A stretch of 64,000 bases of DNA, taken from Cyanobacteriota bacterium. GTDB lineage: Bacteria; Cyanobacteriota; Cyanobacteriia; CACIAM-69d. Every line of letters starts with the position of its first letter. Positions within the stretch are counted from its first letter, which is position 1. The stretch covers positions 522,540-586,539 of the forward strand of contig JAKRSF010000006.1 in assembly GCA_022402445.1 (NCBI GenBank), given 5' to 3'. The notes under the pieces are model-generated. The model did not search any database and was not told where the DNA came from. It saw nothing but the letters and a program-made list of their open reading frames with translations. Shown here in pieces: positions 2,317 to 17,114 of the stretch. Position numbers and translations under genes: made by a program.

Positions 2317-3861
2317 CTAGGAAATTTGGGCGCGGCACCGTTCAACGATCGCGGCGACCACTTCCTCAATGGTCAGGCCATCGGTGATCAATTCCCAGGC
2401 GTCGGCGGCCTTCTGGAGGGGCGACACGGGGCGGGTGCTGTCGAGGCGATCGCGTTCCGCAATGGAGGCGGCCAACTCCGTCAGATCGGGCACCGGTTCG
2501 CCGCGATCGCGCAAATCCGCCGCCCGCCGCTGCGATCGCTCCTCCACCGTGGCCGTCAGGAAGATTTTCACATCCGCATCGGGAAAGACGCAGGTGCCAA
2601 TGTCGCGCCCCTCCGCCACCAGACCGCCGCGATCGCCCATGCGCCGCTGTTGGGCCACCAGGGCCGTGCGCACCTCGGGATGGGCCGCGATCGCGGAAAC
2701 CTGGGCCGTCACCGCTGCGCCGCGAATGGCCTGGGTGGCATCGCGATCGTCAATCCAGATCTGCCGTTCCCCCGTTTCCGGCACCACCGCCCCGAAGCGA
2801 ATCTCACAATCCGCCACCACCTCCGCCACCGCGAGGCGATCGCCCGGATCAAGGCCCAGCTCGATCACCCGCCAAGTGAGCGCCCGGTACATGGCCCCCG
2901 TATCCAAAAACAGCAGGCCCAGCTCCGCCGCCACCCGCCGGGTCACGGTGGATTTGCCCGCCCCCGCCGGCCCGTCGATCGCCACCACCAAACCGCGATC
3001 GCGCAGGAGCACATTATCAATCAGCCGCGCCGTGCCCACCGTCGCCGCGATCGCCAGCAGCCCATCCCCCGCCACGCGATCAAGGGGTTTTAGGGTAATC
3101 GGATCCACCAAATCTAAATAGTCCACCACCGCCGCCGGTTCCCGCTCCAGGACCGTCCGCGCCGTCGCCAGCAGGGGATCGCGATCGCGGCAGCCCCCCC
3201 GGAATTTCGCCACCGCCGCCGCCAGCGATCGGAACAGCACCGTGGCCCGCTGGCGATCGCCCCCCGTCAGGTAGCGGTTGCGGGAACTCAGGGCCAGCCC
3301 ATCAATCTCCCGCACAATCGGGCAGGCCACCACCTCCACGGGCCAATCGAGGCTCGCCACCATCTGCCGGATCAGGGCCAACTGCTGGGCGTCCTTCTGG
3401 CCGAAGTAGGCGCGATCGGGCTGCACCAGGTTCAGCAGCTTCGCCACGATCGTCGCCACCCCCGTGAAATGACCGGGCCGCGATCGCCCACACAGCGTCT
3501 CCGTCAGGGTTTCCGGCGGCACCACCACAAATTGATCGCCCCCCGCGCGATCGTCTCCCAACCCCAGGGCCGCCGCCGTCGGCACAAAGAGGGCATCGAC
3601 CCCCGCCGCCTCACAGGCCGCCACATCCCCCTCCCAGTCGCGGGGATAGCGGCCAAAATCCTCATCCGCCGCAAACTGGAGCGGATTGACGAAAATCGAC
3701 ACAATCACAAGGTCATTCTGCGATCGCGCCCGATCCATCAGGCTGCGGTGGCCCCCATGGAGCGCCCCCATCGTCGGCACCAGGCCAATGCCGCGCGGGG
3801 CGTGGGGACGGTTTAATTCCAGGTAGCAACGCAGGGCGGCAACGGACTTGAGCAGTTTCAT
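2317..3861 (-). CDS. panC/cmk: Bifunctional pantoate--beta-alanine ligase / cytidylate kinase
   Basis: This 514-residue fusion has PanC in residues 1 to about 285 and CMP kinase in about 291-514. The PanC half carries VPTMGALHGGH (residues 28-38, the HIGH-type ATP-binding site), FVNPLQF and YFGQKDAQQLALIRQM. The Cmk half carries the P-loop GPAGAGKS at 297-304, LFLDTGAMYRA, and the RDIGT motif (AEGRDIGTCVFPDA). PanC makes pantothenate, the coenzyme A precursor. Cmk phosphorylates CMP and dCMP. This fusion is typical of cyanobacteria. The start MKLLKSV at 3861 is chosen because 35 further in-frame codons upstream are low-complexity and precede the conserved domain. A pantothenate kinase gene for the same pathway lies at 30102-31040. 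Confidence 0.95.
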   Translation of the reverse strand: MKLLKSVAALRCYLELNRPHAPRGIGLVPTMGALHGGHRSLMDRARSQNDLVIVSIFVNPLQFAADEDFGRYPRDWEGDVAACEAAGVDALFVPTAAALGLGDDRAGGDQFVVVPPETLTETLCGRSRPGHFTGVATIVAKLLNLVQPDRAYFGQKDAQQLALIRQMVASLDWPVEVVACPIVREIDGLALSSRNRYLTGGDRQRATVLFRSLAAAVAKFRGGCRDRDPLLATARTVLEREPAAVVDYLDLVDPITLKPLDRVAGDGLLAIAATVGTARLIDNVLLRDRGLVVAIDGPAGAGKSTVTRRVAAELGLLFLDTGAMYRALTWRVIELGLDPGDRLAVAEVVADCEIRFGAVVPETGERQIWIDDRDATQAIRGAAVTAQVSAIAAHPEVRTALVAQQRRMGDRGGLVAEGRDIGTCVFPDADVKIFLTATVEERSQRRAADLRDRGEPVPDLTELAASIAERDRLDSTRPVSPLQKAADAWELITDGLTIEEVVAAIVERCRAQIS

Positions 3862-4136
3862 GGGGCAAGGAGGGCGCAATTTCAGATCAAGGTCAGGGTC
3901 AAGTCCGTCGCCGTAGGGGTTGGGTCTGCCAACCCGGCCCCCCGCGATCGCCCCAGACCCGTTCACAGGGATCGTGGATGCAGGTGGGGGCGGGCGGGAA
4001 AACCTCCCAGGGACGGTTAATCGGTTGAGAAAACAGAAGCCGGTTTGACCCAGACCGCAAAGGTAAAGGATCAGTTAACCACAGATGGCGATCGCCGTTG
4101 GCAACGGACTCGTTCGCTGAGGGATTTTGGGGCACC

Positions 4137-5524: not shown

Positions 5525-8500
5525 TTACCAGGGGCTCCCAATCATCGTAAAGGCCGCCCAATAGTAGGGATGGCTCAGGTCCGAGTTGGGCCACTGGGCC
5601 GCGATCGCGGGGGGCAGCGCCACCAGCCCCCGGGTGGTCCGCAGGGCATCGCCCTCCACCAGATCCGTCCCCCGCAGCATCGCCACCTGGGCCATTTGTA
5701 GCGCTGCCGCCTTCGTCGGAGCCCGGTGCAGGCCATCATAGAACTGGCTCATGAGGCCCAGGGTGCCCGCATCGCTCACATACCACAGGCTTGCCAGGGC
5801 AGATTTTGCCCCCACCCGCACCGCCAGCCCCCCAAAGCCCAGCTCCACGTCCTCATCCCCGAGGGCCGTGCGGCAGGCGCTCAGGACGAGCAATTCCACG
5901 GGCGGTTGGGTCCAGTTCAGTTGCCGCAGGTTATCGACGGGCACTGGCCCCTCATGGAATTGAATGAAGGAGTTTTTCGGATCGCCCGGTAAAAATTCCG
6001 CATGGGTAGCCAGGTGGACGAGGCGGTTGGCGTGGGTGGCGCGGCTGTGGCGCAGGTTCTCAAAGGTGAAGTCCCGGTTGAGCCAGATCTGACCGGGCCA
6101 GAGGCCGCCGAAGGGGGTGCTGGGGGAGTTGGCGATCGCGGTGGCTTCGTCACCACCGCCGCCGCGATCGCCCGAGGGGGCCACGATGGTTTTCAATTCC
6201 ACGGGCACGGCGGGCAGGGGGCTCAGGCCAGAAAATTCCGATGCCCCCATGGCCAGGACCGTGGAGCCGTCGAGGGGATCGTAGCGGGTGTCCGTAAGGT
6301 TGATGCTGGGGATGAGGGTGAGGGCGTAATTTTCCACCAGGAAGCCGCGATCGCCCAGCAGGGCCGCCAGGGGGAGCGATCGCAGGCCGCGATCGAGGCT
6401 AAAGACGAGGGTATCGGCCCCCAGGGCATCGAGATCCGCCAAAATGGGGCGAATTAACCAGTCATAGAGCTGCTGGGCCGGTTTTTTATAGGCATCGCTG
6501 TCCCGCTCTAGGGGATTGGTGACCGCTAGGCGCAGTTGGCGGCTTTGTTCGATGAGGTCCGCCTGGTTGGCCGATGGTACGGAGCGGTAGATGGGCCGTC
6601 CGGCGGATTTGGGCGGGATCAGGATTAGATCCAGTTGCTGCTCCCGCGCAAGGGCGTAGATGATGACGGGGCTGGTGCCGGTGCGATCGCCCACCGCCTC
6701 TAGGCGATTTTGGACTTCTGGGACACTGGGGAGGATCGGGCGCGGGGGCAGGTCTAGGTAAGTGAGGTAGTGGTTGCTATAGAGCTGATCGAGCAATTCG
6801 GCGGCGGGTTCCACCTGGGCCGTGTCTAGGAGCCGCACGATGGAGCGCCGCAGGACCGGTTCGAGGACGGGCTCGGCGAGGGGGCCGGGGGCGATAATGC
6901 TGAGCGATCGCGGGGGGCGGATGGGGTTGGGGTCGCTTGGGGGTGAAGCCTCGGGGACGCTTTCGGGGGGCGGCGGCGGCGGGACTAGGGGCGGTGGATC
7001 GGCGGGGGGGGCGATCGCGATCGGCCCCGACACTGGCGGCGGCGGCGGCGGCGAGGCGATCGGCTCGGGGACTGGGGGGGGCTGCGGCGAGGCGATCGGC
7101 TCCGGTGGAGGCTCCGGGGGCGTTGGCGGCGAGGCGATCGGCTCCGGTGGAGTCTCCGGGGGCGTTGGTGGCGAGGCGATCGGCTCCGGTGGGGTCTCCG
7201 GGGGCAGCTCAGGGCTCGGGGGCGCGATCGGCTCCGGCGTGGGCACCGGGGTCGGCGTGGGCAGCGGCTCCGGCACGGAAATCACAGAAACATTGCCAAA
7301 CGTCGTCGTATACAGGTACGAACCGGGCGTCGCCTGACTGTTGCCCGCAGAGATTGCCCCCACCGTGCCATTGGTGGGCACTCCCCCGGCGGCCACCTCA
7401 AACGGCACTAGGCCATTGCCCCCGTGGTTGATGGTGATGGCCCCAGCGGTGGTGCTGCCCGAGGTGTCAATACTGCAATTCCCCGCGGCGCACGGGAACG
7501 AGTTAGTGGCGACGAAGTTACTGCCCGTCACGACGGCCACATTGCCCCCTGGGCCGCTGGTACTGCTGGCGTCGATGAATTGCACCACCACATCCCCCGG
7601 TGGATCGAGGGTGACGTTCCCGGCGGGGCCGCCGGTGGCGCGGGTGAAGATGGTGCCGCCTAAAATGCTGACCCCCGATTCCACGAAGATGTTGCCGCCG
7701 CTGGTGCCGGCACTGTCGAGGTTGCCGAAGGTGACGGGGCCGCCGATGGATCGGAGGGTGACGCTGCCCCCCTGGCTGCCGATGGCGCTGCTGGTGATGT
7801 CGCCCACGGTGACGCCCTGGGGGCCGGTGAGGCTGACGGGGCCGCCCGGTTGATCATTGCCCTGGGTGGAAATGGTGCCCGCGTTGATGGTGGTGCCTGC
7901 GCTGAGGGTGACGGTGCCGCCCCGCTGGGGGGCTGTGCTGGTGATGGTGCCCACCGCGATCGCGCCGCCGCTGGCGGTTAGGTTAACGTTGCCTGCATTC
8001 TGAACTGTAGAAGTGGTCAGGGTTGTGAGGTTGCCGAGGCTGATACCCCCCGGAGCCGTGATGGTGATGCTCCCCCCCAGGGACGGTAGCTGGCCATTGC
8101 CCTGGAGGTTGATATCACCGCCGCTGAGGGTGGTGGCTGCGGTGATGTTCACATTGCCGCCCCCCAGGTCGCCGCCGAAACCGCTGATGCTGCCAAAGGC
8201 GATCGCGCCACCGCTGGAGGTGAGGCTGATGGAACCACCCTGGCCGTCATCTGACGAGACGGTATTGATATTGCCAATGGTGATGTCCTGGGGGGCCGTT
8301 ACGGTCACAAAGCCGCCGCCGCTTGGCCCCAAACTGCCCCCATTGCTTGTATCAATGGTGCCCACCTCGATGCCGCCGCTGGTGGCAGTCAATTGGAGGG
8401 AGGTGCTGTCGCCGACGTCTGGATTGGCGGTCGAAAAGGTGCTGCCCGCCGCCGCGATCGCCGTCGCCGTAATATCTAGCCCCCCGACGGACCTCACCAG

Positions 8501-11023
8501 CAATCCCGGTGCCACCGTCAAGTCTCCTGAGGTGGATATCTCCAAACCGCCCCCCCGAATTCCCAGACTGATCGGTGCCGTAATGGCGATCGACGACGGC
8601 TGCCGCACGTTCCCAATGAGTACCGTTTGCTCCTCCGTCACAATTTGGCTGAGCGTCAGGGGGCCAAACGTATTAATCTCCAAATTTGCGCCCAGGTAGG
8701 AGCGCACCGTCTCCAGCGTCACCGGTCCATTGGCCAAGATCGTAATCGGCCTATTGCTCGGCCCACCACCCGCATTGGTCACTAGGCCCGTGGTGGTGAT
8801 GGCACCGGCCGCCTCCAGACGAATCTCACCGCCGACGGAGGACGAGAGCCCCGCGTCAATGGAATTGATCGTCAGATCCCGAGCGCTGCGAAGGATGACA
8901 TCGCCCGCGTTGACGCCTGCGGTGGTGTTGAATTGGGCCGTGGAGGGGGCTGTGCAGCCTGCGCTGGGGCAAATATCTCCCACCAAGGTGGTTAGGAGGA
9001 TTGGCCCTGGGGGATTGGTTCCGGTTTCAGTGATGAGGTTGCCGTCTAGGGCGATCGCTGCCCCCTGGACCGTGATGCCATCCACGGCCCGCACATTGGC
9101 CGCAATGGTTACGGTTTCGGACGAGTCAATGGTCAGGCTACCCCCTGGAACGGCGGAGATGCCGTTGTTGACCTCGACGCTGCCGCCGCCGGTGGCAGTG
9201 AGGCTGATATTACCGGGGAAGGTGGAGATGGCGGAGTTGACGACTACGCTGCCGCCATTGGCCGTCAGGTTAATGGTGCTGATGTTCCCTGAGAGGTTGC
9301 TGTTGACGTTGATATCGCCGCCGACGGTGGTTAGGTTGATGTTTCCGTTGCTGCTGAAAATGCCGGTGCCGCCGATGTTGATGGTCTGGGGATGGGGGAC
9401 AACGGTTTCTAGGAAGCGGACGTTCATGTTGTCGTTGAAGTTGACGGTGCCGCCCCCGGCCTGGATCTGAAAGGTGCCGTTGGAACTGCTGATCGGGCTG
9501 TTGATGGTGATGTCACCGTCGGCCCGAAAAGTGAGGGTGTTGGGGGTTGTCCAAAAAATGGTTGCCCCTGGGTCAAGGGTGATGTTGCCAGCCCCGCCCG
9601 CAGGGGAGGCGGTGGAGACGATGACGTTGCTGCTATCTAGCTGGGTTGATAGGTCCGTGTTGTTCAGGTTGGAGCTGGCGGCGGTGCCGGTGTAGGTATC
9701 GGTGGCACCGTCGAAGGTGATGTCTACGCTGGTGGCGGCGGTGGAGATGGTGATGTCGGTGGGGTCGAGGAGAAGGGTGCCGCTGGGGCCGTTGGGAAAC
9801 CGCGATCGCAGGTCCGCTAGTCCGCTATAGTTGAGGGTTTCTTTACCGGATACTTCCGCAAAGCCGCCGCGATCGCCCCGTGCCGAAATGTTTCCGTAGA
9901 ACTGCGTAGCGCCATCGGCCCAGATGATCGCATTGCCACCGTCGCCACTGAAAATGCCGTCGGCCAAGAATCGGGAGTTGCGATCAACAAAGGCGCGCTG
10001 GGCATTGAACACATTCCCTTGCCCCTGGAGATCGCCGCCGAAGCGGATCGAGCCGCCCCCGATCGCGCTGGAAGCATCCACCGTTCCACCGATGGAAATG
10101 ACGCGATCGCCCAACACCGCGATCGCCCCCGGCTGATCCCCCAGGGTTGAAATGAGGCCAGTAACGAGGGATGTCCCTTCCGTCAGCAAAACGGTACCGT
10201 CCGGCTGGGCGATCGCCTGGGTGGCCCCATCAATCCCGTGGCCCGTCAGCAGCGTCGGCAAATCTAATGGCGCAATGGCGGGGGCGGTACCAAGACCTGT
10301 GGGCTGAAGTTCTAAACCCAGGACATTCCCCGCGATCGCCCAACGCACCGACGACTGACCGGGCACCGACGCCACAGTGACCCGCCCACCGGGAGCCATC
10401 AACGCACCGCCATTCCAGACCGTGCCCCCCAACAGCGTCAGGCCCGCCCCAGGACTCACCGCCAAAGCGCCAAAATTCGCAATAGAACCGGCAGAAGCCC
10501 CCGAAAACTCAAACCCCGTCGGCATACCCGCCAGATTCGACCACCCAGAAGCCGACACATCCAGCCCCGTCGTATCCCAACGCAGATCGCCAAAACCCAC
10601 CCCCGTCGCCGTCGAACCGACAAAATCCGCCGGAACATTGAGTTGGGCATTGGGACCAAAGATCAGTCCCGCCGGATTGAGCAGGTATAAATTGGCACCG
10701 CTGCCCGTCACCTGCAAACGACCATCAATCCAGGACGCCTCGCCCCCCACCACGCGGCCGAGGATGTTTTGGATCGTGGGCACCGTGACAAAATCCGCCA
10801 CCTGGCCCTGCTGCACGTGGAAGCGTTCAAAGCTGTGGAATAGATTGCCGCCGCCCGTCGAAGTCTGGCCGCCCGTGATTTCCAGGCGATCGCCCTGGAC
10901 CTGCACCTGAGTATGAAAACCATCCTGGGCGGGGACAATTTGCGCGATCGCGGGAGCCGCCCCCAGCCCCCAGCAAACCCATGCCACCACCGCCCCGGTC
11001 CGCCGCCACTGTCCCTCTACCAT
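5525..11023 (-). CDS. Secreted TPS/hemagglutinin-domain protein with C-terminal CHAT protease domain (paralogue 1)
   Basis: This 1832-residue protein begins with a signal peptide (hydrophobic AVVAWVCWGLG, cleavage near APAIAQ, residues 1-27). A two-partner-secretion domain follows, about residues 30-280: LEITGGQTSTGGGNLFHSF, LLNPAGLIFGPNAQL. About 950 residues of Gly/Thr/Ile-rich, probable beta-helix repeats come next. A proline-rich hinge covers about residues 1249-1350 with PEPIASPP repeats. The C-terminal third ends in a CHAT domain, a caspase-like cysteine protease fold. The candidate dyad is His1674 (LVHLATHAEF) and Cys1717 (VLSACRTALG). The protein is probably exported through a TpsB pore, but none is encoded in the window. 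It lies tail-to-head with its paralogue at 11278-16716. The substrate and partner are unknown. Confidence 0.88.
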   Translation of the reverse strand: MVEGQWRRTGAVVAWVCWGLGAAPAIAQIVPAQDGFHTQVQVQGDRLEITGGQTSTGGGNLFHSFERFHVQQGQVADFVTVPTIQNILGRVVGGEASWIDGRLQVTGSGANLYLLNPAGLIFGPNAQLNVPADFVGSTATGVGFGDLRWDTTGLDVSASGWSNLAGMPTGFEFSGASAGSIANFGALAVSPGAGLTLLGGTVWNGGALMAPGGRVTVASVPGQSSVRWAIAGNVLGLELQPTGLGTAPAIAPLDLPTLLTGHGIDGATQAIAQPDGTVLLTEGTSLVTGLISTLGDQPGAIAVLGDRVISIGGTVDASSAIGGGSIRFGGDLQGQGNVFNAQRAFVDRNSRFLADGIFSGDGGNAIIWADGATQFYGNISARGDRGGFAEVSGKETLNYSGLADLRSRFPNGPSGTLLLDPTDITISTAATSVDITFDGATDTYTGTAASSNLNNTDLSTQLDSSNVIVSTASPAGGAGNITLDPGATIFWTTPNTLTFRADGDITINSPISSSNGTFQIQAGGGTVNFNDNMNVRFLETVVPHPQTINIGGTGIFSSNGNINLTTVGGDINVNSNLSGNISTINLTANGGSVVVNSAISTFPGNISLTATGGGSVEVNNGISAVPGGSLTIDSSETVTIAANVRAVDGITVQGAAIALDGNLITETGTNPPGPILLTTLVGDICPSAGCTAPSTAQFNTTAGVNAGDVILRSARDLTINSIDAGLSSSVGGEIRLEAAGAITTTGLVTNAGGGPSNRPITILANGPVTLETVRSYLGANLEINTFGPLTLSQIVTEEQTVLIGNVRQPSSIAITAPISLGIRGGGLEISTSGDLTVAPGLLVRSVGGLDITATAIAAAGSTFSTANPDVGDSTSLQLTATSGGIEVGTIDTSNGGSLGPSGGGFVTVTAPQDITIGNINTVSSDDGQGGSISLTSSGGAIAFGSISGFGGDLGGGNVNITAATTLSGGDINLQGNGQLPSLGGSITITAPGGISLGNLTTLTTSTVQNAGNVNLTASGGAIAVGTITSTAPQRGGTVTLSAGTTINAGTISTQGNDQPGGPVSLTGPQGVTVGDITSSAIGSQGGSVTLRSIGGPVTFGNLDSAGTSGGNIFVESGVSILGGTIFTRATGGPAGNVTLDPPGDVVVQFIDASSTSGPGGNVAVVTGSNFVATNSFPCAAGNCSIDTSGSTTAGAITINHGGNGLVPFEVAAGGVPTNGTVGAISAGNSQATPGSYLYTTTFGNVSVISVPEPLPTPTPVPTPEPIAPPSPELPPETPPEPIASPPTPPETPPEPIASPPTPPEPPPEPIASPQPPPVPEPIASPPPPPPVSGPIAIAPPADPPPLVPPPPPPESVPEASPPSDPNPIRPPRSLSIIAPGPLAEPVLEPVLRRSIVRLLDTAQVEPAAELLDQLYSNHYLTYLDLPPRPILPSVPEVQNRLEAVGDRTGTSPVIIYALAREQQLDLILIPPKSAGRPIYRSVPSANQADLIEQSRQLRLAVTNPLERDSDAYKKPAQQLYDWLIRPILADLDALGADTLVFSLDRGLRSLPLAALLGDRGFLVENYALTLIPSINLTDTRYDPLDGSTVLAMGASEFSGLSPLPAVPVELKTIVAPSGDRGGGGDEATAIANSPSTPFGGLWPGQIWLNRDFTFENLRHSRATHANRLVHLATHAEFLPGDPKNSFIQFHEGPVPVDNLRQLNWTQPPVELLVLSACRTALGDEDVELGFGGLAVRVGAKSALASLWYVSDAGTLGLMSQFYDGLHRAPTKAAALQMAQVAMLRGTDLVEGDALRTTRGLVALPPAIAAQWPNSDLSHPYYWAAFTMIGSPW
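6975..7280 (-). repeat. Tandem repeats encoding the proline-rich hinge of CHAT paralogue 1
   Basis: Units of about 42 bp, each containing GGCGATCGGCTCC (plus-strand reading), encode PEPIASPPTPPETP-like peptides. At least three near-identical copies lie at about 7060-7200, flanked by more diverged ones. HIP1-like cores recur once per unit. The number of units could vary by slippage without breaking the frame because 42 is a multiple of three. Confidence 0.75.
10179..10958 (-). repeat. 780-bp direct duplicate, copy 1 (within CHAT paralogue 1)
   Basis: Comparing this stretch with 15878-16657 (offset 5699), I find no mismatch over 780 bp. It covers the end of the signal peptide and the whole TPS domain (about residues 23-282). 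On both sides the paralogues diverge abruptly: base 10178 differs, and from 10959 the sequences are unlike. This suggests recent gene conversion rather than selection on the protein. Confidence 0.9.
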
Positions 11024-11277
11024 CGTGCTTCATTCCCGAACTTAGGACGTTTTTACCCATCACCGATCAAGCCCTGCCCCCTGCGAGCCGTTTTGTGGAA
11101 AGGCAAAACCCCTGCCCCCAAAACCAGCTTTCATGACTCCCCATCAAAACGCCTGATCGTCCCGCTGAGATGAAGCTAACTTCCGATCTAGGCCCCCGCC
11201 ACTAGTTCTCTCTAGCTTGGTTTTTCTCTGGATCCATGGCGCATACGTGGTTTGTTCATGTTTCGTTACTGGGCGTC

Positions 11278-14200
11278 TTACCAGGGGCTGCCAATCATGG
11301 TGAAGGCCGCCCAATAGTAGGGATGGCTCAAATCTTCCCCCTCCCACTGGGCCGCGATCGCCTCTGGCACCGCGATCGCGCCTTGGCTAGTGAGCAATTG
11401 ATCGCCCTCTCGGAAATCTGCCCCGCGCAGCATCGCCACCTGGGCCGCCTGGAGGGCCGCTGCCTTGGTAGGGGCCTGGTGCAGATGGTCATAGAACTGG
11501 CTCATGAGCCCCAGGGTGCCCGCATCGCTCACATACCACAGGCTCGCCAGGGCGGATTTGGCCCCCACCCGGACCGCCAACCCCCCAAAGCCCAGTTCCA
11601 CCTCCTCATCCCCCACGGCGGTGCGGCAGGCGCTCAGCACCAGCAGTTCCACCGGCGGGCGGGTCCAGTTGAGTTGCCGCAGGTCGTCCACCGGCACGGG
11701 GCCGTCGTGGAATTGGATGAAGGAGTTTTGGGGCGCGCCCGGTGAAAATTCCGCGTGGGTGGCCAGGTGGATCAGGCGGTTGGCATATTGCCGACGGCTG
11801 CGGCGCAGGTTTTCGAAGGTGAAGCCCTGGTTGAGCCAGATTTGACCGGGCCAGAGACCCCCGGAGGTGGGATCGGGGTTTTGGGCTTTGGGGGCGCGAT
11901 CGCGGCTTGGGGCGGCGATGGTTTGCAGTTCGGTCGGCACGGCGGGCAGGGGATTGAGGCTATCAAATTCCGATGCCCCCATGGCTAGGAGCGTGGCCGC
12001 TTCGAGGGGTTCGTAGCGGGTGTCCGTGAGGTTGATGCTGGGGATGAGGCCGAGGGCATAGTCTTCCACCAAAAAGCCGCGATCGCCCATCATGGCCGCC
12101 ACGGGGAGCGATCGCAGGCCGCGATCGAGGCTGAAGATGAGGGTGTCGGCTTCGAGTTCCGTGAGATCGTTCAGGACGGGCCGCACGAGCCAATCGTAGA
12201 GCTGTTTGGCAGGGGCTTCGTAGCTGGTGCTGCGCCGTTCGATGGGGTTGGTGATGGCGGAGCGGAGGGCACTGACCTGGGCCAGCAGTTCCGGTTGGGT
12301 GGCCGATCGCACGGCCCGGTAGCGGGGTTTGCCCTGGTCCTTGGGGGGGATGACGATGAGGTCGAGTTGGCCGGGGCGCGAGAGGGCGTAGAGGATGACG
12401 GGTTTTGCGCCGGTGCGATCGGCGATGTCCTGCAGGAGGGTTTGGGTGACTTCGACGGTGCGCAGGTTGTCGAAGGTGGGCAGTTCCAGGTCCAGGTAGT
12501 TGCTATGGACGAGGGTATAGAGTTGGTCGATCAGGTCTACGGCGTCTTCGATTTGGCCCGAATCCAGCAGTTTTTCGATGTCGTTGCGGAGGGCGGCCTC
12601 TAGGACGGCTTGCGATCGCGTGTCCGCGCCGAAGGTTTCTGGGGTGCGGCGGCGGCTGAGTTCTTCGCCGATCGCGGGGATGGGGTCCGTTGCGGGGGGT
12701 GGGGCGGCGATTGGGGCAGGGATGGGGGTGGGGACCGGCGGCGCGCTCACGATGGGGGCAGGGGCGGGGACTGGGATGGGCGTCGCGATCGGCTCAGGAA
12801 TGGGAACTGGTGCGGGGATCGGCGTCGCGATCGGTTCTGGGACTGGAACGGGGGTGGGGATCGGCGTCGCGATCGGCGTGGGAATGGGAACGGGCGTTGC
12901 GATCGGCTCTGGGACTGGGACGGGGGTGGGAACGGGCGTCGCGATCGGCGTCGGCACCACGGTCGAGTCCGGCACGGGCACCGGAACTGGGGCCGGTTCG
13001 GGGGCAGGCACGGAAATGATGGCAATATTGCCGATGGTGAAGGTGAAGGGATAGGAACCGGCGGGCACCGTGTCGCTACCGGAATAGATCTGACCATCGG
13101 TGCCATTGATGCCCGACCCCCCCGGCACATCAAACGGCACGATGCCATTGCCCCCGTGACGAATGGTGATGGGGCCACTGTTAACGGGGCTGCTGCCGTT
13201 CGTCGCAATGCTGCACGCCCCCGAGGTCGCGGCGCAGGGGAACGTATCCGTGGCGCGGAAGCTGCTGCCCGTCACCACGTCCACCGTGCCGCCGGTGCCG
13301 CCAGTGCTGCGGGCATCGATGAATGACACCTCCACATCCCCCGGTGGATCGAGGGTGACGTTGCCGCCATTGCCGCTGCCGCCGCTGGTGATGATTTCGC
13401 CGCCGGTGATGCTCACGCCCGATTCCACAAAGAGGGCTCCTCCATTCCCGAAGCCACGGCTGTCCACATCCCCGAAGACCACGGGGCCGTTGATTGATCG
13501 CAGGGTGACGCTGCCCCCATTCCCCCCCGAGGCGCTGCTGTCGATGTTGCCGGTGGTGATGCCTGCGGGGGCGATGACGCTGATGGTGCCGGAATTATTG
13601 GTGGCGTTGTTGTTGCTATTGAGAATTCCGAGGACGGCGGTGCCGCTGTTGGCCGTTAGGGATAGGTTGCCGCTGGCGGTGGTGGCGGGCCTCACGGTGG
13701 AAAGGATACTGCCCGTGGCCTCGATCGCGCCTGCCGTCACCGTAAGTCCACCGGGGGCCGCGACCTCCCGGCCATTGGCGACGGAAAATTGCCCAGATGT
13801 GGTGGCCTGAAACTGCTGATTTCCATTGCCGGTCAGTGTCATATCCTGATTGACCGTGATCGCCGCCGGGACCGTGACGTTGCCGATGGTCAAATTCGCA
13901 CCATTGGTGGTGACGATGCCATCGAAGGTGACGGCTCCCGGCGCATTGACCGTGATCGCGCCGGTATTCGCATTGCCCGGTCCTGCATTGAGGGGGCCAC
14001 CGAGGGTGACTGCGCCGCCTCCGGTGATGGTGACTACGCTGCCCTGGGAGATGCCTTGGTTGTTGATCGGGCCGGTGACCGCGATCGCGCCAGCCGCCGT
14101 CAAGAGCACTGCCCCGCCACGGGTGCCCAGCGCCGTTGAGTTAGCCAGGAGCGTGCCCGCTGTCAGGGTTCCTGGAGTGGCCCGCAGATCGATCTTGCCG

Positions 14201-16716
14201 CCATCGCCGCCGGTGGAGTTGGTTTCAATGCGGTTGATGTTGACACTACCCGCAATGCTCTCTAGGGTCACGTCGCCACCGTTCCCGGCTCCCCCGTCCG
14301 TAAGGATTTGCCCGGTGCCCCCGTCGATGTTGCCATTGCGGGCGGTCATGGTGACGGTGCCCCCGCTCGCGGCTCCCGTATCGACCGTGTTGCTCAGGGC
14401 GATCGCGGCGGCATCCACCGTCAGGGGATTGCCATTGGTCAAGAGATTGGCGCTGATATCGACCGTCCCGGCGGCGGCGGTGGTGGTCAGGACCAGGGGA
14501 TATTGAATGGAATTGCTGTCAATGGGGGCATTGGCCGCGATCGTCCCCGTGAAGCCGGTTCCGGCGGTGGCATCGCCAATGATCACCTGGGTGTAGTCTG
14601 TGCCGATGCGCCCCAATTCATCGTTATTGAGAAAAATATTGCCCGTACCCCCCAGGGCGATCGTGCTGGTGTCGGTGAAGGGATACATCTGAAGCACGAG
14701 GGGATTGGCATCGTCTCCCGTGCCCGCGATGCTGCCTCCCATTGGAATCGCGATCGCGTCGCTGACAATCAACACGCGGCGATTATTGGCTGTGCCCGCA
14801 TTCAGGGTGCCCGCCACCTCAACCCCCGTGCCGATGGCGCTGTTGTTGAAGATGCTGATGTCGCCACCGCCGGAGTTGACCTCGGCCCCTGTTTCCACCA
14901 GGACCGCCCGCGCACTGCCTAAGCCCGAGAGGATTATGTCTCCCCCGTTGGAATTGAGAATCGCGCCGGGAGCAAGGGTGACGCCATCGCCTGCGCCGTT
15001 GTGCCCCCGGAGGCTGATGGGGCCGCCGTTGGTGGTTAGGGCCACGCCGCCATTGATCACGAGGGGACCATTGCCGCCCCCTGTGGGGAAGGGATCATCC
15101 GCCGTCAGGTTGATTTGAAAGGCCGTCAGGTCACCGCCCACCGTGATGCCCTGGGCCGCATTCATGAAAATGCCACCCCCGACATTGTTAGTAATATCGG
15201 CATTGATGGTGATGTTGTTTTCGGCCAGCAGGGTAAGGCGGGTGCTGGCGTTGTTCCAGACAATGGGGTTATTGACGGTGATGTTGCCAACCCCGCCCAC
15301 CGCAGGGGAGGTTGTGGAAACGACGACGTTGCTCGTGTTGAGTTGAGCCGCTAGATCGGCGTTGTTTAGGTCGGAGGCGTTGGCTGTACCGGTGTAGGTT
15401 TCGATGCCATCGAAAGTTATATCTGCGCTGGTGGCGGCGGTGGAGATGGTGATGTCGGTGGGGTCGAGGAGCAGAGTGCCGCTGGGGCCGTTGGGGAACC
15501 GCGATCGCAGGTCCGCCAGTCCGCCATAGTTCAGGGTTTCTTTACCGGATACTTCCGCAAAGCCGCCGCGATCGCCCCGCGCCGAGATATTTCCGTAGAA
15601 CTGCGTAGCCCCATCGGCCCAGATGATCGTATTGCCACCGTCGCCACTGAAAACCCCATCGGCCAGAAATCGAGAGTTGCGATCAACAAAGGCGCGCTGG
15701 GAATTAAATACATTGCCTTGCCCCTGAAGATCACCACCGAAACGGATCGAGCCGCCCCCGATCGCGCTGGAAGCATCCACCGTTCCACCGATAGAAATGA
15801 CGCGATCGCCCAACACCGCGATCGCCCCCGGTTGATCCCCCAGAGTCGAGATCAAACCAGTAATTAACGATGTCCCCTCCGTCAGCAAAACGGTACCGTC
15901 CGGCTGGGCGATCGCCTGGGTGGCCCCATCAATCCCGTGGCCCGTCAGCAGCGTCGGCAAATCTAATGGCGCAATGGCGGGGGCGGTACCAAGACCTGTG
16001 GGCTGAAGTTCTAAACCCAGGACATTCCCCGCGATCGCCCAACGCACCGACGACTGACCGGGCACCGACGCCACAGTGACCCGCCCACCGGGAGCCATCA
16101 ACGCACCGCCATTCCAGACCGTGCCCCCCAACAGCGTCAGGCCCGCCCCAGGACTCACCGCCAAAGCGCCAAAATTCGCAATAGAACCGGCAGAAGCCCC
16201 CGAAAACTCAAACCCCGTCGGCATACCCGCCAGATTCGACCACCCAGAAGCCGACACATCCAGCCCCGTCGTATCCCAACGCAGATCGCCAAAACCCACC
16301 CCCGTCGCCGTCGAACCGACAAAATCCGCCGGAACATTGAGTTGGGCATTGGGACCAAAGATCAGTCCCGCCGGATTGAGCAGGTATAAATTGGCACCGC
16401 TGCCCGTCACCTGCAAACGACCATCAATCCAGGACGCCTCGCCCCCCACCACGCGGCCGAGGATGTTTTGGATCGTGGGCACCGTGACAAAATCCGCCAC
16501 CTGGCCCTGCTGCACGTGGAAGCGTTCAAAGCTGTGGAATAGATTGCCGCCGCCCGTCGAAGTCTGGCCGCCCGTGATTTCCAGGCGATCGCCCTGGACC
16601 TGCACCTGAGTATGAAAACCATCCTGGGCGGGGACAATTTGCGCGATCGCGGGAGCCATCCCCAGCCCCCAGCCAATGCCGACCATCCCCAATCCGAGCC
16701 ATCGCCCCTGTCCCAT
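11278..16716 (-). CDS. Secreted TPS/hemagglutinin-domain protein with C-terminal CHAT protease domain (paralogue 2)
   Basis: The protein has 1812 residues and the same plan as its neighbour: signal peptide (MGQGRWLGLGMVGIGWGLG, cleavage after APAIAQ), TPS domain to about residue 280, long beta-helix-type repeats, proline-rich hinge (about 1234-1342, PVPxPIATP repeats) and a CHAT domain. The putative catalytic residues are His1654 (LIHLATHAEF) and Cys1697 (VLSACRTAVG). Both paralogues end in DLSHPYYWAAFTMIGSPW. ATG 16716 is preferred over the upstream ATG 16755 because GAGGA lies 8 nt before it. The passenger repeats (about residues 420-1080) differ strongly from paralogue 1, while the region before the hinge (NVTLDPPGDV, VESGVSI) is clearly homologous. 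The 254-bp gap to paralogue 1 is long enough for its own promoter. Confidence 0.88.
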   Translation of the reverse strand: MGQGRWLGLGMVGIGWGLGMAPAIAQIVPAQDGFHTQVQVQGDRLEITGGQTSTGGGNLFHSFERFHVQQGQVADFVTVPTIQNILGRVVGGEASWIDGRLQVTGSGANLYLLNPAGLIFGPNAQLNVPADFVGSTATGVGFGDLRWDTTGLDVSASGWSNLAGMPTGFEFSGASAGSIANFGALAVSPGAGLTLLGGTVWNGGALMAPGGRVTVASVPGQSSVRWAIAGNVLGLELQPTGLGTAPAIAPLDLPTLLTGHGIDGATQAIAQPDGTVLLTEGTSLITGLISTLGDQPGAIAVLGDRVISIGGTVDASSAIGGGSIRFGGDLQGQGNVFNSQRAFVDRNSRFLADGVFSGDGGNTIIWADGATQFYGNISARGDRGGFAEVSGKETLNYGGLADLRSRFPNGPSGTLLLDPTDITISTAATSADITFDGIETYTGTANASDLNNADLAAQLNTSNVVVSTTSPAVGGVGNITVNNPIVWNNASTRLTLLAENNITINADITNNVGGGIFMNAAQGITVGGDLTAFQINLTADDPFPTGGGNGPLVINGGVALTTNGGPISLRGHNGAGDGVTLAPGAILNSNGGDIILSGLGSARAVLVETGAEVNSGGGDISIFNNSAIGTGVEVAGTLNAGTANNRRVLIVSDAIAIPMGGSIAGTGDDANPLVLQMYPFTDTSTIALGGTGNIFLNNDELGRIGTDYTQVIIGDATAGTGFTGTIAANAPIDSNSIQYPLVLTTTAAAGTVDISANLLTNGNPLTVDAAAIALSNTVDTGAASGGTVTMTARNGNIDGGTGQILTDGGAGNGGDVTLESIAGSVNINRIETNSTGGDGGKIDLRATPGTLTAGTLLANSTALGTRGGAVLLTAAGAIAVTGPINNQGISQGSVVTITGGGAVTLGGPLNAGPGNANTGAITVNAPGAVTFDGIVTTNGANLTIGNVTVPAAITVNQDMTLTGNGNQQFQATTSGQFSVANGREVAAPGGLTVTAGAIEATGSILSTVRPATTASGNLSLTANSGTAVLGILNSNNNATNNSGTISVIAPAGITTGNIDSSASGGNGGSVTLRSINGPVVFGDVDSRGFGNGGALFVESGVSITGGEIITSGGSGNGGNVTLDPPGDVEVSFIDARSTGGTGGTVDVVTGSSFRATDTFPCAATSGACSIATNGSSPVNSGPITIRHGGNGIVPFDVPGGSGINGTDGQIYSGSDTVPAGSYPFTFTIGNIAIISVPAPEPAPVPVPVPDSTVVPTPIATPVPTPVPVPEPIATPVPIPTPIATPIPTPVPVPEPIATPIPAPVPIPEPIATPIPVPAPAPIVSAPPVPTPIPAPIAAPPPATDPIPAIGEELSRRRTPETFGADTRSQAVLEAALRNDIEKLLDSGQIEDAVDLIDQLYTLVHSNYLDLELPTFDNLRTVEVTQTLLQDIADRTGAKPVILYALSRPGQLDLIVIPPKDQGKPRYRAVRSATQPELLAQVSALRSAITNPIERRSTSYEAPAKQLYDWLVRPVLNDLTELEADTLIFSLDRGLRSLPVAAMMGDRGFLVEDYALGLIPSINLTDTRYEPLEAATLLAMGASEFDSLNPLPAVPTELQTIAAPSRDRAPKAQNPDPTSGGLWPGQIWLNQGFTFENLRRSRRQYANRLIHLATHAEFSPGAPQNSFIQFHDGPVPVDDLRQLNWTRPPVELLVLSACRTAVGDEEVELGFGGLAVRVGAKSALASLWYVSDAGTLGLMSQFYDHLHQAPTKAAALQAAQVAMLRGADFREGDQLLTSQGAIAVPEAIAAQWEGEDLSHPYYWAAFTMIGSPW
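12690..13015 (-). repeat. Tandem repeats encoding the proline-rich hinge of CHAT paralogue 2
   Basis: The plus strand shows short units containing GGCGTCGCGATCGGC alternating with GGAACGGG-type spacers. They encode PVPTPVPxPEPIATP peptides. The unit differs from that of paralogue 1 (PEPIASPPTPPETP), so the two hinges expanded separately. Confidence 0.7.
15878..16657 (-). repeat. 780-bp direct duplicate, copy 2 (within CHAT paralogue 2)
   Basis: This is the partner of 10179-10958, with no visible mismatch. Outside it the flank at 15520-15877 is similar to 9820-10178 but carries scattered substitutions, many of them silent. Confidence 0.9.
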
Positions 16717-17114
16717 GGTGTCGATCCTCGCCCCAGTATTCCGACTTAATCCCAAGTATCACCCTTTGCCCAGTGTGCCCCTTACCGCCCCCCAGGACAT
16801 CCCCCGCGCGCCCCAGGTTTAATGGGCCAAGGGTCTGCCTCCCCCAGACGCGCGATCGCCCCCAAAAGGTCCACCCCCATCCGATACCAAAGAAAATCTA
16901 GAGATTTTGCCCCCCCACCCCATCCCCAACCCCCAAGGCCGCCCCGGTTCCATAGGGGATGCTAGCCCGCACCATCCCCCGCGCCGTCTCGGTTTCAGGG
17001 GAGGTGCCCGCGAGGTTATCCCACCCTTAAGATGGTAGAACGACCGTCCCTCCCCCCCGAAGGACAGACCATCTCCCCCCGCCCTACCCCGCCGGAGCGC
17101 CCCCCAGGCCGCCC
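16717..17114. other. Divergent intergenic region, 398 bp
   Basis: The region lies between CHAT paralogue 2 and the hybrid kinase, which point away from each other, so it must hold both promoters. It is very rich in C-runs on the plus strand. I see no clear operator, repeat or RNA gene, apart from the GAGGA ribosome-binding site for paralogue 2 at about 16725-16729. Confidence 0.6.

Follow-up and report, generated by a model that had tools for sequence, protein, structure and literature searches.

The window analyzed here, a 64-kb stretch of DNA, carries two large genes arranged in tandem on the minus strand. Each encodes a signal peptide, a two-partner secretion (TPS) domain, a passenger that is long and diverse, and a CHAT domain at the C-terminus. 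Gene 1 (5525..11023) specifies a protein of 1832 amino acids, defined by its open reading frame, its translation, and matches to Pfam TPS (residues 27-227), Pfam CHAT (1514-1830), and the adhes_NPXG family TIGR01901. Gene 2 (11278..16716) specifies a protein of the same architecture and about 1812 residues, based on its reading frame, translation, Pfam matches and, for the start codon, alignments. Its mechanically called reading frame begins at a TTG at 16755. Translation more probably starts at the ATG at 16716, given that the signal peptides of the two genes can be aligned from there onward. The hallmarks of a TpsA exoprotein are present: a signal peptide, a TPS domain (PF05860, 4.6e-37; TIGR01901, 2e-21), and an NPAG motif, and sequence relatives with solved structures include EtpA (8cpk) and an adhesin (2odl). 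CHAT (PF12770) was detected in both proteins with E-values of 2e-61 and 5e-60, and both copies retain the His (ATHAEF) and Cys (SACRTA) motifs, suggesting that they are protease-like. Elsewhere in the window, a single open reading frame (2317-3966, minus strand) has matches to pantoate-beta-alanine ligase as well as to cytidylate kinase and so encodes a fused two-domain protein.

The two genes share a 780-bp block. Base-by-base comparison at an offset of 5699 revealed that 780 of 780 bases are identical between 10179..10958 in gene 1 and 15878..16657 in gene 2, both on the minus strand. In gene 1 the block spans codons 22-281, which encode the end of the signal peptide, the TPS domain, and the first part of the helix that follows. 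Because the genes lie on the minus strand, the block forms the 5′ end of each, which corrects the initial annotation. In an exhaustive 30-mer scan of the 64 kb it was the sole exact direct repeat longer than 50 bp, and the remaining exact direct repeats, of 30-50 bp, all fell within the same gene pair. Mismatches bound the block at 10178/15877 on one side and at 10959-10960/16658-16659 on the other. The identity along its whole length and the difference at 10178, both previously noted by eye, were therefore borne out. The claim that the sequences are unlike beyond 10958 was overstated: 14 bases (10961-10974) match past the mismatches, the rest of the signal-peptide region can be aligned, and similarity is lost only further upstream. 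The edges, described as abrupt, are sharp for silent sites at 10178, but homology continues through 9718-10178, which is about 92-95% identical to its partner in nucleotide sequence.

Silent sites set the block apart from the rest of the pair. Synonymous divergence (dS) within it was 0 over 209.5 synonymous sites. The next 154 codons (amino acids 282-435; 9718..10178 in gene 1, minus strand, partner 15417-15877) form the distal conserved TPS-adjacent region, and the contrast with this region defines the edge of the tract. Here the proteins are 96% identical and dS is 0.34, in agreement with the initial annotation, which had described adjoining sequence that is equally conserved in protein and yet carries many silent changes. 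The CHAT domains (5528..6484 in gene 1, minus strand, partner about 11281-12213) are also related, a further correction to the earlier description, with 78.5% amino acid identity and a dS of 0.56. The passengers (6950..9700 in gene 1, minus strand, partner about 12690-15400) have about 40% amino acid identity and are near saturation at silent sites, with dS above 1. We next counted silent differences among degenerate codons that specify the same amino acid in both genes. None of 252 such codons differed in the block, compared to 36 of 151 in the distal TPS region (Fisher, 2.4e-17) and 68 of 233 in CHAT (Fisher, 5.8e-25). When conserved codons alone were permuted, under a null that takes codons as exchangeable, a tract like the focal one was reached in 0 of 5000 permutations. 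The distal TPS region and CHAT, compared for a hint of older conversion, did not differ significantly in divergence (Fisher, 0.29). Silent-site divergence rises from 0 within the block to 0.34 or more in the conserved flanks, and uniformly low dS along the whole pair is excluded by the values of 0.34 and 0.56 and by the near-saturated passengers. The pair therefore has exact silent-site identity in a bounded tract with old, divergent sequence on both sides. By the rule of three, the upper bound on dS in the block is 0.014; judged from the ratio of this bound to the flanks, the event that homogenized the block would be younger than the divergence around it by a factor of about twenty or more.

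One way to hold a block identical is constraint on the DNA itself, imposed by an antisense gene or an RNA element, and each copy of the block does contain a 177-amino-acid antisense reading frame. However, this reading frame has no Pfam match and the block region no Rfam match. Furthermore, relative to a third paralog in the same genome (C9:253409, 49% amino acid identity), the block region of both genes has a pS of 0.65 and is saturated at silent sites, as it is elsewhere. DNA-level constraint consequently does not explain the block, and we give this idea almost no credence. The tandem arrangement in the same orientation would also fit a second copy made recently by unequal crossing-over in a formerly larger array. 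The product of such a crossover would have its partner's upstream region, but in the alignment the upstream regions of the two genes diverge and the tract has a boundary at either end. The upstream divergence and the old sequence on either side of the tract make a simple duplication or a crossover product unlikely, and we consider recent unequal crossing-over very improbable.

Similar tracts were found in other cyanobacteria. We compared, codon by codon, tandem TPS genes from a class-wide search, 18 pairs in 14 genomes with the focal pair included, and scored a tract as significant when it was reached by at most 1 of 5000 permutations of conserved codons. The sample consists of the best matches to the focal TPS domain and is non-random, and the many pairs in genome G069 are not independent of one another. 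Significant tracts were present in 7 of the 18 tandem pairs, five at the TPS end and two at the C-terminal end. At the TPS end, codons with silent differences numbered 0 of 255 in the focal pair as scored in this survey, 1 of 102 in the G011 pair, 3 of 67 in the G069 pair, 1 of 51 in the G074 pair, and 7 of 215 in the G176 C1 pair, which has 82 of 191 outside the tract and is the nearest analogue of the focal pair. The C-terminal tracts lie in CHAT in the G058 pair (3 of 93) and at the C-terminus of the G176 C4 pair (6 of 130). Tracts were borderline in the tandem pairs G007, G185 C56, and G185 C7; on conserved codons, no significant tract was found in those of G001 (two pairs), G017, G188, G210 (two pairs), G167, and G111. 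The G011 pair shows another stretch of low divergence, this one within CHAT (amino acids 1142-1201 of gene p1539), with a pS of 0.10 compared to about 0.55 around it. The 3.3-Mb genome G069 has at least 14 TPS genes, one ShlB, and dispersed copies with long silent-identical tracts at the TPS or C-terminal end. Two of its dispersed genes (C1:518k and C2:229k) differ at 0 of 322 silent codons, and further pairs have a C-terminal tract (4 of 290) and a TPS tract (0 of 114).

These independent assemblies bear on the possibility that the block is an artifact, in which slightly different TPS regions were written as one consensus in both places. The focal genome is a 4.08-Mb draft in 13 contigs and the 780-bp repeat is longer than short reads, as a collapse would call for. 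However, the gene pair sits well inside a 659-kb contig, and the adjoining 92-95% identical sequence was kept distinct, indicating that ordinary bubble-popping did not occur. Tracts of the same type, usually with a few residual differences, are present in the assemblies of G176, G069, G011, and G058, which a collapse does not predict. We regard an assembly collapse, the main risk to this finding, as improbable. In light of these results, the 780-bp block very probably arose by recent ectopic gene conversion between tandem paralogs that are themselves old and encode TPS-exported CHAT proteins. The initial annotation had proposed recent gene conversion, and this is well supported by the absence of synonymous divergence next to flanks at 0.34 or more, by the saturated third paralog, and by the tracts in independent tandem pairs.

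In the mechanism that we envision, strand invasion would have occurred where the copies retained near-identical DNA, at the TPS end. At least 780 bp would have been copied between the genes, with either as donor and with the sister gene or incoming DNA as template, and the intermediate would have been resolved without crossover by homologous recombination. Such a resolution would have preserved the order of the two genes, along with upstream regions and passengers that differ between them. The tract's location at the TPS end probably reflects the fact that TPS and CHAT alone remain similar enough to recombine. Over time, repeated events of this kind would lead to concerted evolution of the gene ends as the passengers drift apart. 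A foreign origin of the block is unsupported: its GC content of 0.63 is like that of its neighbors, and its GC3 is 0.685 compared to 0.65-0.72 in the distal TPS region. A scan of genome contigs for close relatives returned only a weak Streptomyces match. We also considered the HIP1 octamer (GCGATCGC) as a feature of the edges, since one copy sits 8 bp within the tract from one edge and another 30 bp within it from the other. GCGATCGC occurs 263 times in the window compared to 3.7 expected, about once per 243 bp, as is typical of many cyanobacteria, and at this density its proximity to the edges is uninformative. Together with the gene content, the density suggests that the DNA is cyanobacterial.

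Genomes G007 and G058, which belong to the same genus, each carry an orthologous tandem pair, providing a view of the process across species. Site patterns in this quartet were counted as ortholog : within-genome : third pattern. The passengers group by ortholog (for example, 50:1:0 and 44:0:0), and an excess of within-genome patterns was never seen in them. By contrast, in parts of TPS (0:3:2 and 0:6:2) and of CHAT (1:7:1 and 2:9:1) the ortholog signal is lost and most sites show the within-genome pattern; across amino acids 1263-1382 of CHAT, within-genome sites outnumber ortholog sites 16 to 3. Loss of the ortholog signal in parts of both domains argues that conversion acts at both ends of these genes.

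The initial annotation had confined conversion to the export module. As a rule, this is not supported: two of the seven significant tracts are C-terminal, the G011 pair has its second stretch in CHAT, and the CHAT domains of the G007 and G058 pairs have lost ortholog signal. A related claim was that a shared export module is maintained while passengers diversify. This would follow if the two proteins had to fit a common TpsB and selection favored conversion on that account, with TPS ends staying identical and passengers free to diversify. Consistent with this idea, a single ShlB/TpsB-type protein (PF03865; G000:C6:175439-176392) was found for the four TPS proteins of the focal genome; it is unlinked to all four genes and would be the exporter of the focal proteins. 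Similarly, in G069 a single ShlB accompanies at least 14 TPS genes with strongly homogenized TPS ends, and the TPS end holds five of the seven significant tandem tracts. However, the other two TPS domains in the focal genome are only 45-49% identical to those of the pair, and no second ShlB was found there. Provided that the one pore serves all four proteins, export apparently does not depend on identical TPS domains, and maintenance of a shared module is unsupported as a rule. Tracts are present in CHAT and C-terminal regions too, and they also occur in genomes with many TpsB proteins: nine in G176, eight in G074, and five in G011. We therefore consider selection for a common fit to TpsB rather unlikely as the driver. 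The simplest reading is that neutral recombination limited by similarity accounts for the pattern without selection, the passengers being too diverged to convert, unlike the ends. Some selection to keep the export module in common may contribute as well.

In bacterial multigene families such as rRNA operons, ectopic homologous recombination homogenizes paralogs within a genome, a process known as concerted evolution. In the present case, by comparison, the process is restricted to the ends of mosaic proteins, where conservation is retained. There is a published precedent among TPS genes. The hmw1A and hmw2A adhesin genes of H. influenzae are, like the focal genes, a TPS pair with an identical 5′ stretch, covering their first 1,259 bp, and gene conversion that swaps binding domains is reported between the loci (PMC8262952). 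Each hmw gene belongs to an operon of its own, complete with B and C genes, whereas the focal genes are in tandem, encode a CHAT domain, and have their only detected TpsB unlinked. In Neisseria meningitidis (tpsA/tpsC), part of the exoprotein gene is substituted through homologous recombination between TPS gene copies (PMC3848433). The segment traded with silent cassettes in that case is the 3′ toxin end, whereas in the focal pair the 5′ export end is homogenized between full-length genes. In the literature searched, a scope that left most subscription journals outside, we found no report of gene conversion in cyanobacterial TPS-CHAT genes. Taken by itself, the focal case is gene conversion of an ordinary sort, for which Haemophilus offers a known parallel.

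Whether the pattern is general is a more tentative matter. It is possible, although we lean slightly against it, that in cyanobacterial TPS families, which often carry CHAT, ongoing conversion homogenizes the export and C-terminal or CHAT ends even between dispersed copies and leaves the passengers free, with many exoproteins sharing one TpsB. The locus provides a clean, datable gene-conversion tract. Together with the wider survey it points to a simple rule, testable in culture, in which recombination homogenizes the conserved ends of exoproteins and spares their passengers. It also cautions against reading orthology from TPS or CHAT trees, which can be misleading.
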